Positions 1-47,398 of a DNA stretch of 64,000 nt are shown piece by piece. Source of the stretch: Paragonimus westermani (Eukaryota; Platyhelminthes; Trematoda; Plagiorchiida; Troglotrematidae); the NCBI GenBank assembly GCA_008508345.1, contig QNGE01002392.1, positions 52,225-116,224 on the forward strand. Reading direction: 5' to 3'. Both the position numbers and the translations under genes were made by a program. A model generated the notes under the pieces. That model was not told the origin of the DNA. It did no database searches and saw nothing but the letters and a program-made list of their open reading frames with translations. The stretch's first letter is position 1. Every line of letters starts with the position of its first letter.

Positions 1-1644
1 GAAAAACTCTTGATATATTTCCACTGCTTAGGCAATCGGTTCATAATTTTTTCAGTTCGAACGCGCGAACGTGATCTCCGTCTCTGTGATGCAAACCAGC
101 GTCTCAGAACACCACACGACGCAAATAAAAAAACAATACCTCAGGGTTCGGTTTTAAAATATGACCTTATCAGCTCAAACAACAAGGCTAGAGTTGGCAA
201 CTTCATATTTTTATGACGTAAGATTCCGTTTTCCTACTTTATCAACTGTAGACTATTTAAAATTGTTTAATTCTAAGGTACGCAATAACGGGCTAGCCAA
301 AAATTAAGGCGCTAACCTTCTTATACAGACACATTTCATTCATGTAGTAACTGTTATAGTCGTGATAATAATCGATGGTTCTGAGACGTATATTGCTAAG
401 CCCGAGTTGCTTATGGGTTTCATTTCAAAAAAAGACAGACACAAGGACGACTCGGGTAACACATGGTCTGCAAGAACATTACATCAGAAAGTAATGTTTG
501 TTACGATAGCTGAGTGTTACTCACAAGCAATTGCATCCATCTGCATCACGTTTCAGTCGTTTGATAAAATCCTTTGGAAACCGTAAAAAATATGATACCA
601 CTAGCTGACAAATAGTATGTTACTTCTATCCGTTATGCTTTCAAGTTAAAAAAGTTCAGGCAATTAACTTGCAATTCGACTTGTGACATTCGCTTATTGT
701 GACTTCAAGGTATGCTGAACAGGATAAATTTTCCATACTTTCACGTTTTTGTTTCAAACTGTCGATGATGCTCCAACTCCTTTTTTATGCAGATTGTGCC
801 GAATTTATCAGCAGCAATCTGTCACCGAGGTGCGGCAGTAATAAAACTCAACACCCGTATCTTATATGCATATGTGACTGTAAATATCGCCAAACAAACC
901 ATTAAGTATGAGGTGATAAAACTAAACGAAGCATAATAGTCAGTATAAATTTTGCATGCTTTCTACACTTTCACAGGATAAAATCCGCCTAGTAAATAGA
1001 ATTTGTCACAGAATATTCGTTCAGATTCACATTAGCTCCAGAATTGTTCGTTTGACACCGAGGTGATTGAATGTCTTGCACATTAACAGGTTTTCTGCTG
1101 CACTACGGGGTGCTCAATATAATCATTTGCGTTCACAATGAACAGCTCGTCAAACACCGATGGGCATTAGCATGCGGAACGAAAAAACTTAAATTAACTA
1201 TTAGGTGCTACGAAGATATGATGTTTAACAGTGGCTTTTTCAATGATAGTTGAACTAAAAGAGAAATAAACACTAACTCGCTAAGCAGAAAATGAAGAAT
1301 GTGCTATCGATTTCTGAGTAACTGCATCCATTGTCCTGGTTTTAAAGCGGTGTTTAAGCATTTATATTGGATTTTTGATTTACTGAGATTTTTCCCACGT
1401 GCAATATCTAGGTTGTGATGTATATTTCTTCTCGATTGTACGGAGCTGATTTCTGGAAGCGTAAATCAGATAAAACCCAAGCATTCATTGCTTATCTCCT
1501 TGGCTACTGCTTGGTCTAGCACAAAACATCCTGAACTAAAACTTCAGTGAACTGAAATAAAATGGTTTATGCAAATGTAAATATTTCTGGATAACGGCTT
1601 GTTTGAATGGATAAATAATTGCATGAAGAAGTCATCCAAAATGA
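1..1644. other. Stretch with no recognised gene
   Basis: AT-rich DNA with frequent stops on both strands. The few open frames are under 80 codons, several start at TTG or GTG, and none resembles a known protein or has convincing splice borders. I see nothing functional here. Confidence 0.6.
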
Positions 1645-1655
1645 CTGAAACCTCC

Positions 1656-1720
1656 CGAAGACGGCTGAGCTGTAAGCGCTCCTGGAGCGGGAAAGACCGA
1701 AGAGGTCTTAGGCTGCTTCG
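1656..1720 (+). other. GC-rich foldable island with two tandem hairpins
   Basis: CGAAG at 1656-1660 can pair with CTTCG at 1716-1720, enclosing two hairpins. The first pairs CGCTC with GAGCG (1677-1689, 3-nt loop). The second pairs AAGACC with GGTCTT (1693-1709, loop GAAGA). The GC content stands out from the AT-rich surroundings. It may be a fragment of a structured RNA or a repeat. I cannot name a family, and chance folding is possible. Confidence 0.25.
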
Positions 1721-1979
1721 TGTTGTAAAATTAATCAGGATTCCCAGTAAAGCTGGTTGGAGATTGATATGAAGCTGGCGGAATTAAACCAGATAGTTGT
1801 TGAATGCTTCAGTAGGTTGCACCTCACAGTTTGTTTACCGGAGGACTAATCTACAATTTCTGCCCAATGATTACCTTAACCGCCCGCAAGATGACCGCAA
1901 CTTCACAGAGCCAACAATATAACGAGTTCGGTCATTTAAGACCCTGAGGACTAAGGTGCAATTATTACGCTGTCTAATG

Positions 1980-2162
1980 CTATTCGCTACAAATCACCAC
2001 CTTGGGCAATCCTTGAGCTGAAATATAATGTAACAACCAATTCAAAGCTTGTTTTCTTGCTAAAGTTGTCTCAGAAAAATCCCTCAAAGAAATATGACCA
2101 CCAACACGAACACTAATGTAAACCGTCGTCATGCCTTGAACCCACAAGTTGGCGGTGATCAT
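1980..2162 (-). pseudogene. Open frame with weak LTR-retrotransposon integrase resemblance
   Basis: A 60-codon frame beginning at a real ATG. Its second half (…SLRDFSETTLARKQAL… then GLPKVVI) has the spacing of the integrase-core stretch of gypsy-type elements, where a substrate-facing segment is followed by a G-[LV]-P-x-x-[IV]-x-S-D motif. Here the expected S-D is replaced by C-S-E and a stop follows at once. The downstream sequence on the same strand has stops in every frame, and I could not trace the remaining integrase or any LTR. It may be a tiny decayed fragment or a chance likeness. Confidence 0.18.
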
Positions 2163-2169
2163 CGATTAA

Positions 2170-5100
2170 GCATAATAAATTTCCTGAATTTTCAACCGTG
2201 AACATTGCCTACAGTTACGCGTGGACTTTCTAAATTATTCATACCGTTGGCAGAACGAGAAAAATATGTTTCATTTTGCCTAGTGTTATTGTTACCTTAT
2301 ATAATAAATATATTTGCAAAATTATCTAGCATTAACGCATATTGTAATGTTCAGCTGTTCCAGGATCACTAAGCCGGTAATTCATTTTTCATTTCGCAGT
2401 AGGATGTCACTACTAGTCATGCTGTAGAGCCAAGTAAAAATGATTCAAATCTAATACCAAACCGGTGATAACCTTGACATATTCTGATCGATTTTCAAAG
2501 CAGTAAGCTAATATGCCTCTGTGGGTATGCATTATAAAAGTCTCCCAGTTCAACGCCAAAAACCATGAAGCATAAGCCATCCAAAGTCGATGAATATATA
2601 ACATACTAAATGCGCATTGTTTTCTTCATTATTCTGTGACAAGTGAACGGATGTTAAATAAATTATTGTGCATTAGTAAATAGGAATATTGATCTCATCT
2701 CTTTTTAACGTCTTTATCTCATCTGTGTGATTACCTGGATGGTAGTGACGGAAAGTGGTGACCTCGACCAAAAATACCTACGCCTGTACAAATCAGTGGC
2801 GTTACATCAAAAACACAATACGAGTGAATTGTGATTTTCATGAATATATAAAGTTGGCCCTCGGCGCAAAAGACGCTTCACGTTGTCTTGAAGTTTGTGT
2901 ATTATGAACGTTCATCCTGATATGAAACGGTTGTTAACTTATGGTGATTTTAGATATGGTGCACAGCTCCCTTAAAATTACAGGCATGCGATATACTCGT
3001 CACAACGCTTCACTAGCTGGCTGATTAGTGACGACCTGTAGTAGATGGTTCGGTATAGACTTACTGATCCTTGTTTCTACGCCTCTGTCTTCATTTTACT
3101 TGTTGTTGCTATAACTGTAGAGAAGACGATAAAGGACGTAACGTTGAAATTTTTAAATCAAATTACAAGCAGTTCACTGAATTTTTTATTGAATTAATTT
3201 TGTATGTTGCTCTTCATACAACCAATTTATGTTGAGTGAAACTCGTGACAGAATATCCGCTAAATCTGCCACCAAATGTAGCTGGTAATTATGTCCTATA
3301 ACCTTAGTTTTAATATTGCCGTTAACCGTGTCCCGAAAATACTCACTATTCATAAATCGTTTAGAGTAATAACTAACCTTTTTATCAGTATCTTCTTCCC
3401 TAAGCCCGCTAGTGGTAAGCGCGTGACGATATCATTATTTCGTGTGTCTAATTGTCTCAAGAAAATTCAAACGGTTCCTTGATAACGTTTTTCAAACACT
3501 ATAATAGAAGTCTTGAAATGCTTCTTCGTGAAGCACGCTATGTTTAATTCACATCTGTACGTATAAGTACTGTTTTTTCAGCAAGAATTTATCCAGGCTC
3601 AGTCACGAACAGATTGTTCCCCATAAACAGTTATGTAGAGCATGCTCAACTTTTGCACCATTATGGTCAATATGAAGTGCGCTTTTCACTCTACAACATG
3701 TGGTTTGTTTTTTGTGGCCCATAATTATTGGCAGTGTGAGGCGGTACACATTTTTATTCTTTATTTATGAAACATAATGCTTTTATCTTGCCTTTTATTC
3801 ACCGGTGTCTCCTGAAAAAGCCATGTCAACTGCAAAATTTGAATGAAGCAATAGTGTTTGGGCATATCACAACTTCTGAGTCTTCAGATCGGACTGGATA
3901 AAGTGGGTGCCCTTTTCATCATACACAAAAAATTTGATTCTATTTAACACGAAAGTGTCAGATTGTCCAACTGATATATGTAGACTGATATGCAACTGAT
4001 ATACAAATGCGAGAAAATCACATTCTGTGCAAAAAACTCACCTATAAATTTCGACGTAAGGGGCCTATATTTTTCTGAACACATTGAAAAGAGATCATTC
4101 CAGTAGTTCTCCCTTAATTCCTCCCCAGTGAACATTTTTTCACCACGAAACTGGCCCACAAGCATTGCTTGTACTATAATATTATAGATTTTGGAAGTGA
4201 TCGACCTCAAACTGCGATTGGTTCACAGTCAAGTAATTCCATTGGTCCGTGACCCCACGTTTTCAAACGATGTAAAGAGTTTGGGTCGATTTGATTGGCA
4301 CTCATTTGTGCATGACGCTAGCGATAGATTGCAGCTAGGGAACAAAAATATGCTTATTTACATTCTGGTATTATTCTGGTTCTACATACCCAACAAGACC
4401 AGTAAACTTGAGTATGGAACTAACAGCACAATGGGGTCATAATACCATCGTTTAAGGGCGTTTTCACTGGTTTTTCATTGAGCGGAAGTTCCTCCTTAAC
4501 AGTTCAATGTTTAGGGGAAATTAAACGAAGAAGATATAAAAAAACATTCACAGAACGCACGGGTTAGGAAACTAGTAGACATCGGACGCTTATCCGGTGA
4601 CCTTGAAAACAGGCTAAGAAGACGGTCAAAACCATAGAGTGCTGGGCACCTCTTACGCGTTTCAGATGAATATGTCTAGTTCCCTGAAAAGCAAAGAGTG
4701 TGAAATGATTCTTTTTTGAGGTGGATGCTCTGAAGCAAGGCAGGAAGTATATGTACGATAGTTTTCCGTCGCGTAGGCTCAGATGTCATTCAGTAGTGCG
4801 ACCAACTTACCACTGGTTTCATTCAGAACCAAACCGTATGTACCGTTGGTACGTCCTATGAAATCATTGATATTCAGTATGCTTACATGTATGCCAAAAG
4901 AAATCTTCGTTATACTCAGGTAAATTGCAAAATTATGCTATGAAGTCAACTGTCAGTATGCATTGGGAAGTGTGCATGGTTTACGCGTCTTTACAGTCTA
5001 TGTTTAGCGGAACGAGTTCATCCTACGCAACCTAAATTTAGGGTTACAATCAAGCTTGCACCATTATAAAAGTCATATAACAAACACCGATTATCTTTCA

Positions 5101-27380: not shown

Positions 27381-27386
27381 AATAAC

Positions 27387-27640
27387 TGATGCGTATTCGG
27401 GAACTTGATTAATTTCAAGTTGAACATCGCTCACATTTGATCGTAGCCTTCGCATTCAGATAAACACTCCAGCCAGCCTCTCTCGAAAAGAAGCACTAGA
27501 CTTGAGGTACGCTCGCGTTAGAGCTCGTTAGTAATGCATGCCCCTGCCGAGACCAAGATTCAAAATTCAGCCACGCTTTCATGAGGCAACCGTGTCGACC
27601 ACGGCGCCATTGACCTCACATTAAGTACGACCGAATTATT
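27387..27640 (-). mobile_element. Hammerhead-carrying tRNA-promoter repeat, copy A (partial)
   Basis: Aligns by eye with copies B (29904) and C (46975). The copies share the CAAGTTGAAC…ATTCAGATA block, the ribozyme block, box B and box A, ending with TGACCTCACATTA at 27611-27623. On the minus strand box A reads TGGCGCCGTGG and box B TTTTGAATC, separated as in a tRNA. The roughly 200 bp that follow (plus sense) in copies B and C are absent after about 27640, so this copy is truncated on its promoter-proximal side. A tRNA-derived, pol III-type short retroelement is the best description. Confidence 0.65.
27493..27537 (-). ncRNA. Hammerhead ribozyme, copy A (mutated core)
   Basis: A 45-nt minus-strand unit. 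Helix I, GCATTA with TAGTGC, pairs over 6 bp including one G-U. Helix II is GCTC/GAGC. The cleavage triplet GTC (27499-27501 on plus as GAC) is intact. The core has CTAACGA instead of CTGANGA and GTAC where GAAA is required, so this copy should be inactive. Helix III would be tiny, as in minimal retroelement hammerheads. Confidence 0.55.
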
Positions 27641-29903: not shown

Positions 29904-30332
29904 CTGATGAGTAGTCGGGGATTTGGTAAATTGCAAGTTGAACTTCACTCACGCCTGATCGCAACTGTTACATTCAGATAGAACTTCCACTGAGCCTTTT
30001 TAAAAAACAAGCACTAGACTCGAGTTTCGCTCTAATTAGTGCTCCTCATTAATGCGTATATCTGCCAAAACCGTGATTCAAACCCCAGTCGCACTCTCAT
30101 GAGGCAACCGCGTTAACGACTGCATCACTGACCTCACATTAGACACAAGCGAATCATCATATCTGAACGCTTAACGACTTCGTTTGTGAGCAGTGATCAG
30201 GTTGTCTGTTCGTTCCGAGTGGAGACCTAAAAACCGTCCCATTAACTCCAACCGATAGCCCCGCGATTAAGACTTTTGAGGCAAATCGAGATCATTCGTT
30301 TCATTAAACCTGCTGGGCGTTATTTTAGATTA
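29904..30332 (-). mobile_element. Hammerhead-carrying tRNA-promoter repeat, copy B (full unit)
   Basis: The most complete unit, about 430 bp. Reading plus sense it runs: start motif GAGTAGTCGGGGATTTGG, the CAAGTTGAAC…ATTCAGATAG block, the ribozyme (30011-30055), box B (30074-30085), box A near 30115-30131, TGACCTCACATTA, then about 200 bp shared with copy C (…CCTGCTGGGC). On the minus strand the pol III-like boxes therefore lie in the middle, not at the 5' end as in a classic SINE. The start motif recurs directly after the unit at 30338, giving a tandem junction. Divergence from copies A and C is substantial, so the insertion is old. Confidence 0.7.
30011..30055 (-). ncRNA. Hammerhead ribozyme, copy B
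   Basis: A 45-nt minus-strand unit. Helix I GCATTA/TAGTGC is complete. Helix II is GCACTAATTAGAGC with one A-A mismatch. GAAA and the cleavage triplet GTC are intact. The core strand reads ATGAGGA against CTGANGA, a single loss of the essential C, which should abolish or greatly reduce activity. Helix III is the 2-bp AC/GU with loop UCGA. Confidence 0.65.
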
Positions 30333-30415
30333 CTGAAGAGTAGTCGGGGATTTGGTTTATTTTCAAGTCTATCTGAATGTGAAGACTGCAATCAAATGTG
30401 AGTTGTGTTCAACCT
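30333..30415. repeat. Tandem start of a second repeat unit joined to an inverted fragment
   Basis: CTGAAGAGTAGTCGGGGATTTGG (split here as CTGAAGAG at 30333 and its continuation) repeats the start of copy B in the same orientation up to about 30368. The sequence then switches to CTATCTGAATGTGAAGACTG…GTTCAACCTG, the reverse complement of the 29938-29980 block of copy B. This is a tandem junction fused to an inversion of the same repeat. Confidence 0.6.
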
Positions 30416-30419
30416 GAAA

Positions 30420-45910: not shown

Positions 45911-46970
45911 TAGCAACAACCCTACAAACAGTTGTTTTTGAACACCAACAGCGGTTTGAACCTTCGGAATACAGTCGCTTCAGCATAGCGCAGTGTTCGC
46001 CTGTGAGTAGATAACGCGAAATGCCGTTGTGGGATCACAATGGTGTTACGTTACTAGAATACGACACGTAATAGACGATGCAGGCTCCTTGTTTCTGTGC
46101 CCGGTTGTGACATCAGGTGTTTGCGTAATCTGTTCCTTGACCCATTTCGGGATGTGCTCCGTCACCCTGGTTCGTAACTGGGGCTGTCAGTCACGTGAGT
46201 GTTGGTTTGAGCCTAGTCGCATGCAAGCCAAGTAGTCAGGCCCTGTCCATTCATCTTTTGTGTCATGTGATGGCCAACAACTCGCTTGATTCTTCAGCCT
46301 TAGAGCCGTCCTCATTACGCGTCTCAATTCACCCTTTGTTTTCTTCAGTTGCCCTGAAATCCCCTTAAGATATAAATGCCGATGTTATGTTAAACATTCT
46401 TCACATACATAACTCACAAACTCGTACATAAAAATGTGTGTCCCAGTGTGTACACAAGTGGTTCGAAAAATCTTTTTTTCCCTTCACTTCCACTAAATTC
46501 TCAAAAGTTACTCCTTCTCTCCCTCTTCCTGACTGTGGTGTTGTTTTATTTTAATGTCAACCACTAATGTACTAGCCTTACTAATATAAAAGAGATGATG
46601 TAACAAAACATAAATGAGTTGAGATGCTTCACACTATCCTCTGGAAATAATGATGATGTAAACTTCTGCTAAACTTCCGTTACAACCTGCGCATCTCTGC
46701 TAGTTTGCAACAGTTATGGCCAAAGTTTCAAAGGTGACATACTGTCATCACTGTAAATCAGTCGCGGTTAACATCTGGGAGCCGTTCTCCCGGTAAGGTT
46801 GACCTTCGAATTTAACTTACACAATCATTACTTTCCTCTCGTTAAGGCTCACCAGAAGAACATACTGCACGCTTGTTTTAACCGCACCGCCACTGCTCTC
46901 ACAAAGCACAGGAACAAATCCTCATCATGGGCATACACACCACATAGACCGCAGTTAACCTTACTCATGC
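45911..46970. other. Stretch with no recognised gene
   Basis: A frame at 46029-46235 is unrecognised. GGTTTGA box B-like words occur at about 45953 and 46205 without a matching box A. Nothing else is evident. Confidence 0.45.
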
Positions 46971-46974
46971 GTAA

Positions 46975-47398
46975 TTGATGATTTGGTAATTTTCAATTCG
47001 AACGTCAATCACGTTTGATCGCGGCTGTTACATTCAGATAGGGTTTCCACCCAGCGTTTTTCGAAAACGAACATCAGACTCGAGTTTCGCTCTCACTAGA
47101 GCTCGTCAGTAGTGCATATCATTGCCACGGCCGGGATTTAAACTCGGGCCATGCCGTTCATGATGCAACGGTGTTGACCACTGCGCCATTGACCTCAAAT
47201 TAGGCACGACCAAATCATCAAATGTGAACGCTCAGCCACTTTCGCTCGTGAACGATTATCAGGTTCTACGATCGTCTCCAGAGGAGACAAAGTAACTGTC
47301 CTGTTAACTCCGATGGATAACCCCTATATTAGGATTTCAGGGATTGGTCGAACTCTCCAATCTCACTAAGCCTGCTAGACAATATTTGATAATAGCTG
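46975..47398 (-). mobile_element. Hammerhead-carrying tRNA-promoter repeat, copy C (nearly full unit)
   Basis: Matches copy B over its whole length, including the roughly 200 bp on the far side of the promoter boxes (…CCTGCTAGAC). On minus, box A reads TGGCGCAGTGG (about 47178-47190) and box B GAGTTTAAATCCC (about 47134-47147), both close to the pol III consensus. The ribozyme follows at 47071-47115. The start motif is damaged. No tandem partner is visible at either end. A pol III-transcribed, non-autonomous retroelement is the best reading. Confidence 0.7.
47071..47115 (-). ncRNA. Hammerhead ribozyme, copy C (canonical core)
   Basis: A 45-nt minus-strand unit with every core element in order. 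Core CTGACGA lies at plus 47103-47109. Helix II GCTCTAGTGAGAGC (47089-47102) has a 5-bp stem and loop AGTG. GAAA is at 47085-47088. A minimal helix III is AC/GT with loop TCGA, and the cleavage triplet GTC is at 47077-47079. Helix I is GCACTA with TGATGT, which keeps A-T, C-G and G-T pairs with one mismatch. This is a type I hammerhead with a very short helix III, like those of Penelope elements and animal retrozymes. Weak helix I may limit activity. Confidence 0.78.

Follow-up and report, generated by a model that had tools for sequence, protein, structure and literature searches.

The window, the 64-kb stretch of Paragonimus westermani DNA analysed here, carries three minus-strand copies (A, B and C) of a hammerhead ribozyme motif, each lying within a copy of one repeat (Table 1). 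The original prediction had placed all three correctly in position and strand and had taken them for diverged members of a single repeat, which our comparison confirmed: the copies share 72–75% pairwise identity over 253–375 bp. The common 45-nt layout ascribed to them holds in outline but not in the core: three core bases are missing from copy A, and copy B retains 12 of 13, with one changed. Copy C does keep every core base, as had been claimed (13 of 13, with 12 of 13 pairs), and helix I is indeed fully paired in copies A and B. The differing helix II sequences had been read as covariation among the three copies; this reading fails, the differences being mutation. Copy B has one broken in-register helix II pair, and the CTAATTAG pairing cited in its favor lies in a shifted register.

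Table 1. Hammerhead motifs and associated features of the repeat in the window
Feature	Position	Strand	Details
Hammerhead motif, copy C	47071..47115	minus	RF00163 24.6 bits, model 1-45
Copy C helix I	47115-47110 paired with 47076-47071	minus	
Copy C after helix I: CTGACGA, helix II, GAAA, self-complementary ACTCGAGT	predicted cut after 47077	minus	
Copy C of the 431-bp repeat unit	46961..47387	minus	unit 4-430, 82% to consensus
Copy C A-box-like TGGCGCAGTGG	47178..47188	minus	unit position 202
Copy C B-box-like AGTTTAAATCC	47134..47144	minus	unit position 247; family consensus AGTTCAAATCC
Copy C TTTT, shortly past hammerhead	47064..47067	minus	site of the unit consensus's only T4 run
Hammerhead motif, copy B	30011..30055	minus	RF00163 28.5 bits
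Copy B arm	29904..30368	minus	80% to consensus
Inverted arm, head-to-head with copy B	30365..30419	plus	unit 345-399, 85%
Hammerhead motif, copy A	27493..27537	minus	10/13 core bases, three lost
Copy A of the repeat unit	27382..27639	minus	unit 172-431, 83%

In a 401-base scan, the Rfam model RF00163 (Hammerhead_1; gathering score 34 bits) matched copy C from end to end (24.6 bits, E = 9e-4). When the whole window was scanned at E ≤ 1, copy C was absent from the matches and copy B (28.5 bits, E = 0.007) was the sole hit. Copy A was unmatched in either scan covering it, and a gathering-threshold Rfam scan of the 64-kb window gave no match of 34 bits or more. Copy B belongs to a head-to-head insert. 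Its tandem arm measures 467 nt, with unit tail 392–431 continuing unbroken into the next unit (1–427); of the two arms, one terminates at unit 399 and the other at 427. Flanking repeats sought around copies A, B and C did not exceed 5 nt. Three copies per 64 kb is not unusual for this repeat (family 1), its density being ~77 per Mb (12 copies in 155,222 bases of flanks of 58 loci, a sample perhaps richer in repeats than the genome average).

Genome-wide searches covered the 823-Mb assembly. The DNA searches each scored the best 40 of 759–3083 candidates, and two of them yielded 60 loci, including two of the window copies; young and long copies are over-represented in these searches, because candidates were scored best first. 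The consensus of 35 family-1 copies has a period of 431 bp, a GC content of 47.3%, a complete hammerhead core and all three helices. Within this unit, an A-box-like 11-mer (202–212) and a B-box-like sequence (247–256) stand at tRNA-like spacing just upstream of the hammerhead (275–319), whose predicted cut falls after 313. The A- and B-box-like labels, here and in family 2 below, follow the general consensus of these boxes. ARAGORN at default settings found no tRNA in the unit, and the Rfam tRNA model, run on 20 loci at E ≤ 0.5, left the unit unmatched; for these two reasons we call its head tRNA-like rather than a tRNA. A separate Rfam tRNA match above cut-off (35.8 bits) occurs at L019:5-85, in a locus shared with family-1 copies. 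The sole T4 run of the unit consensus lies at position 323, 10 nt past the cut site, and on this account RNA polymerase III may not transcribe the whole unit; the corresponding TTTT of copy C is possibly a weak terminator for that polymerase.

The original prediction had proposed scoring the repeat with Rfam hammerhead models, and the outcome is divided: the window copies stay below 34 bits, whereas other copies of the same repeat exceed it. Scanning 20 loci revealed 14 matches in 12 loci above the RF00163 cut-off (34.7–36.3 bits) and 15 further matches for which the related HH9 model gave the top score, all under that model's cut-off of 52. Across the genome, RF00163 matched at least 42 places at E ≤ 0.001, at least 35 of them above cut-off, with the best 74 of 136,546 candidates scored. 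We fetched 40 stretches around these matches and sorted them according to motif and unit similarity, obtaining 27 of a second family, 9 of family 1, 3 of a third family and 1 unassigned; some family-2 stretches duplicate one another's sequence. The locus L164, not assigned to a family, has a hammerhead match of 33.3 bits, just under the cut-off. With a family consensus that has the full core and three helices, boxes upstream and above-cut-off copies elsewhere, the proposal of a hammerhead in a dispersed, tRNA-promoter-like repeat stands.

Families 2 and 3 came to light initially through the structure model. Family 2 (within L126–L165, with L135 left out of the consensus because its core was not located) has a unit of ~311 bp with A box TGGTCTAGTGG and B box GGTTCGATTCT, helices GTGGTG/CACCAC and GACC/GGTC, and hammerhead scores of up to 47.5 bits (e.g., L127:401-445). 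Its head resembles tRNA-Glu. Family 2 is older than family 1, and a comparison of the two units revealed no similarity at E ≤ 1. Family 3 comprises three copies (L136, L142 and L145, near 401–443), in which a 43-nt motif with helices CTCCAC/GTGGAG and GTCC/GGAC follows a B-box-like sequence. In each of the three families the consensus has a complete core (13 of 13 bases) and all 12 scored pairs; in family 3, the second pair of helix III would require a dimer.

Core preservation among genome copies, another point raised by the original prediction, is borne out in family 1, with the whole core kept in 103 of 146 rows (which include both arms of some inserts). The family-1 core changes at a substitution rate of 0.034, against 0.058 outside the hammerhead, and the free position of CTGANGA at 0.274. 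Rates as low as that of the core occurred in 0.14% of 5000 matched position sets from the rest of the region, and in 0.06% of matched sets confined outside the hammerhead. The family-2 core was not clearly slower than its matched sets (0.133 versus 0.159, with 11% of sets as low), and it is intact in only 5 of 33 DNA-found rows; the family-2 result counts against present-day constraint there. The decay of the window copies to below the Rfam cut-off and this lack of clear core constraint in family 2 would suit a hammerhead-like string that arose by chance or survives as a relic devoid of any role in the repeat. Given that young copies score above the cut-off, that the family-1 core is slow to change, and that three families of different sequence carry a hammerhead downstream of B-box-like sequence, we regard such an origin as very improbable.

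Covariation, which had likewise been suggested as a check on genome copies, appears as paired changes between families and is absent inside families 1 and 2. Comparison of the three family consensus motifs shows both partners replaced in 6–7 of 12 pairs, with no pair altered on a single side, families 2 and 3 having been found by the structure model. In 60 DNA-found copies, a random draw of 30 among the 77 distinct family-1 rows plus 30 distinct family-2 rows free of gaps, the two sides can pair in 88.3% of pair cells, compared with 75.4% in shuffles and 21–43% for slid partners, and 145 cells have changed on both sides versus 63.8 ± 12.9 in shuffles; this pairing excess is mostly the difference between the two families. 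No covariation was detected inside family 1 (146 rows; 97 broken pairs versus 5 double changes) or inside family 2 (64 broken pairs versus 5 double changes). At L007 (1932–1976 and 2380–2424), two arms have G-C in place of the A15.1-U16.1 helix III pair; we give this apparent replacement no weight as covariation, both cases being neighboring arms.

Helix III is minimal in all families: two pairs close a self-complementary tetraloop in families 1 and 2 (TCGA and AGCT, respectively), and one pair closes the self-complementary CCGG in family 3. Cofolding two copies yields a predicted double hammerhead at −34.1, −34.3 and −33.7 kcal/mol for families 1, 2 and 3. As a palindromic stem III and dimeric cleavage are already described for repeat-borne hammerheads (PMC3088659, PMC6155905), the dimer trait is one that the lung-fluke families share with these and not a novelty.

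Family-1 inserts are truncated at scattered 5′ points, arranged in unbroken tandem, or joined head-to-head, and they occur on many contigs, mostly as one or two units. Flanking repeats of at least 9 nt border 12 of 52 clean-flanked inserts, against 0.6% of shuffled pairs; with repeats of 8–13 nt, the count is 16 of 52 testable inserts, against 1.1% of shuffled pairs, and 36 of 52 have no flanking repeat of 8 nt or longer. Tandem units, as at L004, L038, L054 and L055, could be taken to mark a satellite DNA spread by recombination and not by reverse transcription. This we find scarcely credible in view of the many contigs involved, the prevalence of one or two units, the scattered 5′ truncation, the preferred 3′ sites and the flanking repeats of some inserts.

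The 3′ ends of the inserts are concentrated at two positions. Main arms in 58 loci end at unit 400–406 (16 loci) or at 420–23 in circular numbering (42 loci), the preferred sites lying 30 nt apart, 88 and 118 nt past the cut. Among 40 loci selected on unit 320–425, 22 arms end at 426–431, 11 at 1–13, five at 72–73 and two elsewhere. The third end, at unit 72–73, is found in L087, L097, L117, L119 and L121 and is reached across the unit boundary. Family 2 likewise has two preferred sites, ~119 nt apart and 39 and 158 nt past the cut, with 12 of 34 arm ends at 168–193, 20 at 292–310 and 2 elsewhere.

Head-to-head inserts, present at 37 of 97 family-1 loci, distribute their arms between these sites. 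Both ends could be classified in 26 of them, of which 23 have one arm per site, 2 have both arms at ~431 and 1 has both at ~401; the remaining 11 have an end that is cut short or located elsewhere. Were each arm to take either site independently with equal chance, at least 23 inserts out of 26 would show one arm per site with p ~4e-5 (calculated by hand). The count excludes L010, L027 and L056 (an arm below 85% identity) and L017 (gap over the limit), of which L027 and L017 would also show one arm per site. In family 2, 11 of 24 loci are head-to-head, and all 8 classifiable inserts have one arm per site, as judged by eye on loci found through the structure model.

An Sm-alpha-like, tRNA-derived SINE moved by an ordinary LINE offers one account of these inserts, with twin priming on A-rich stretches generating the two 3′ ends and the head-to-head arrangement. 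The A and B boxes of the unit, the 5′ truncation, the flanking repeats and the AAAAT stretch at each family-1 3′ site are all consistent with it, as are LINEs being the largest repeat class of the P. westermani genome (PMC6329441). However, none of 30 inspected junctions bears a long poly-A or simple-repeat tail. The arms of head-to-head inserts both end near 3′ sites and commonly overlap in sequence; from the behavior of L1, a single twin-primed LINE RNA would not give overlapping arms that end near 3′ sites. Together with the one-arm-per-site pattern, which families 1 and 2 combined show in 31 of 34 classifiable head-to-head inserts, these features make a LINE-moved SINE unlikely.

The length of the arms bears on the form of the RNA template. 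An uninterrupted arm exceeding one unit was found at 15 of 58 loci, the longest reaching 987 nt, and these long arms cross the cut site. That maximum belongs to L004, where more than two family-1 units stand in a row beside an inverted arm, with three hammerhead matches. Hammerheads lie exactly 431 nt apart in the tandem loci L038 and L054. The 5′ ends do not pile up at the predicted cut, none of 35 falling within 1 nt of unit 314, and 11 of 35 lie at unit 282–323; 5 of the 40 loci are left out of these counts because their 5′ end runs into N or the edge of the locus, and the L088 arm start, printed as 312, could equally be 314, two bases being shared at the junction.

In a strict retrozyme cycle, hammerhead cleavage and ligation would produce a 431-nt RNA circle as the only insertion template, following the model published for animal retrozymes (PMC7229834). 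The unbroken arms that cross the cut site and the exact 431-nt spacing of tandem hammerheads are what such a circle would leave, and the circular family-1 unit folds better than its shuffles (−139.8, against −120.1 ± 4.8 in 60 shuffles). Uncleaved multimeric transcripts explain the long arms equally well, however, and an Anolis Penelope element took unprocessed RNA in vitro (PMC11167929). Moreover, copies from cut linear RNA are under-sampled here because the searches favored long matches. We therefore hold the circle as sole template to be a possibility worth tentative consideration, on balance doubtful.

The Anolis Penelope-like element PAc provides the closest published parallel for insertion at two sites (PMC11167929). 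Its reverse transcriptase initiates internally at two neighboring positions, and the 30–40 bp separating them make up a tail that genomic copies may or may not carry; the target is cleaved on both strands and each is extended, without any strand difference in start site (PMC11167929). The commonest start lies 111–118 nt into the ORF, or 85–92 nt after the hammerhead cut at 26 (PMC11167929). The spacing of the lung-fluke sites agrees with this two-site scheme in family 1 (30 nt) and disagrees in family 2 (~119 versus 30–40). In vitro, PAc used unprocessed RNA and its hammerhead cleavage was dispensable for insertion (PMC11167929), so the role of the ribozyme may lie elsewhere.

A query with a Penelope-type reverse transcriptase fragment returned at least 150 matches at 41–47% identity from the genome (the best 150 of 12,406 candidates), many of them in open frames of 400–890 aa. 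At L197, Penelope elements stand in exact tandem, 2609 bp apart and identical over 792 overlapping bases. The L197 copy has reverse transcriptase motifs, a Pfam RVT_1 match just under the cut-off and a C-terminus that is GIY-YIG-like by eye, in which Pfam detected no GIY-YIG domain. It shares no sequence with the units of families 1, 2 and 3 at E ≤ 1, and the Rfam hammerhead search found no match in it at E ≤ 1. Near the frame start, at L197:1296, there is a CTGATGA...GAAA...TC string with no clear helix II. The family-1 unit, only ~431 bp long, contains no reverse transcriptase and GIY-YIG coding sequence of its own. With its reverse transcriptase and GIY-YIG-like C-terminus on one side, and no sequence common to the three units on the other, the L197 element renders a Penelope partner plausible, not proven.

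A genome search with the GIY-YIG model PF01541 matched a single place among the best 150 of 281 candidates scored, and its reading frame presumably belongs to host SLX1. The scarcity of PF01541 matches is uninformative about a Penelope partner, because Pfam misses the GIY-YIG-like C-terminus of the L197 element. As a separate observation, the cox1 gene on the assembly's mitochondrial contig (20,273 bp), translated with the flatworm code, matches P. westermani at 100% identity over 444 residues. Further cox1-like stretches occur on contigs C7067, C3990 and C30, one of them on a 15.5-kb contig and containing 7 TGA codons; they may represent a second mitochondrial contig or nuclear copies.

Collectively, we consider it likely that copy C is a decayed type I hammerhead copy in a ~431-bp retroposon with tRNA-like boxes. 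Self-cleavage of the retroposon RNA is predicted, probably in dimeric form, and a Penelope-type enzyme likely reverse-transcribes this RNA, in which case it would start at two internal sites. The DNA itself supplies the starting points for this interpretation, as read from sequence: the motif and its consensus, the boxes, the tandem and head-to-head inserts, the two 3′ sites, the partial flanking repeats and the Penelope-type reverse transcriptase genes. Tandem copies would be transcribed by RNA polymerase III or from a neighboring promoter. Cleavage by the hammerheads, spaced at 431 nt, would then release RNAs one unit long, and these may circularize by analogy with animal retrozymes. At the target, a Penelope-type protein would nick the two DNA strands, and cDNA synthesis would be primed from each DNA end at unit ~401 or ~431. 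A single priming would leave a 5′-truncated or tandem copy, and two primings a head-to-head insert.

A variant of this scheme gives the ribozyme a second function. If two-template integration is what leaves head-to-head inserts with an arm at each site, the ribozyme could act as a dimerization device as well as a self-cutter: self-complementary hammerheads would join two unit RNAs, a Penelope-type protein would cut both strands, and each DNA end would prime one RNA at its own site. We hold paired integration of this kind to be distinctly improbable.

The comparison with schistosome repeats and Penelope elements offered in the original prediction proves apt, since the host is a trematode and the insertion pattern resembles that of a published Penelope-like element. 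Sm-alpha and Sj-alpha of schistosomes are described as SINE-like elements with a hammerhead (PMC2770079), and PMC4918200 assigns a tRNA to the schistosome repeat, as tRNA-Gln in the body and tRNA-Glu in a figure legend. The lung-fluke families share with them a trematode host, high copy number and a type I hammerhead, the Sm-alpha unit being 335 bp (PMC2770079, PMC4918200, PMC8490949). Compared by description only, they differ in host family and in their units of 431 and ~311 bp; unlike for the lung-fluke families, two-site 3′ ends and head-to-head inserts go unmentioned in the available portions of the Sm-alpha and Sj-alpha accounts. The W-element hammerheads of Schistosoma mansoni are also similar, being satellite-like repeats with minimal hammerheads and a very short stem III, but they are W-chromosome satellite-like elements, some present on autosomes too, with no tRNA head mentioned in the accessible text (PMC8490949).

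Animal retrozymes have tandem units of 150–450 bp with type I hammerheads, and Penelope elements are their proposed movers (PMC7229834). Metazoan non-LTR retrozymes resemble the lung-fluke families (431- and 311-nt tandem units) in the type I hammerhead, in a self-paired unit RNA, in a GC content below 50% (here 47.3%) and in target duplications longer than 4 bp (here 8–13 nt, in 16 of 52 inserts) (PMC7229834). The lung-fluke unit departs from them in its tRNA-like boxes, the retrozyme group having noted tRNA only in schistosome repeats in what is available of PMC4918200, and its inserts are mostly dispersed, of one to two units and in many cases head-to-head. PAc shares with the lung-fluke families a hammerhead upstream of the reverse transcription start, priming of both strands, tandem copies and two start sites, its tail of 30–40 bp matching the 30-nt spacing of family 1 (PMC11167929). 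In contrast to PAc, which encodes its own protein and starts alike on both strands, the lung-fluke unit is short with tRNA-like boxes, and its head-to-head arms usually end at different sites.

Among the titles listed in openly licensed literature, none reports a Paragonimus hammerhead ribozyme, a listed paper containing both words being a land-flatworm mitogenome (PMC10991399), and a narrow literature search turned up no description of the one-site-per-arm pattern. For the entry of animal retrozymes and Sm-alpha-like elements into genomes, Penelope elements figure only as a proposed partner in PMC7229834. In P. westermani, two tRNA-headed hammerhead families, whose units have no detectable sequence similarity, both show a Penelope-like two-site signature in their inserts, and the genome also contains Penelope genes with long open frames. 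These families bring lung flukes, besides schistosomes, into the range of tRNA-headed hammerhead retroposons. They fit the Sm-alpha and animal retrozyme kind, and the feature they add is a tRNA-like head combined with a Penelope-like two-site, two-arm insertion pattern.
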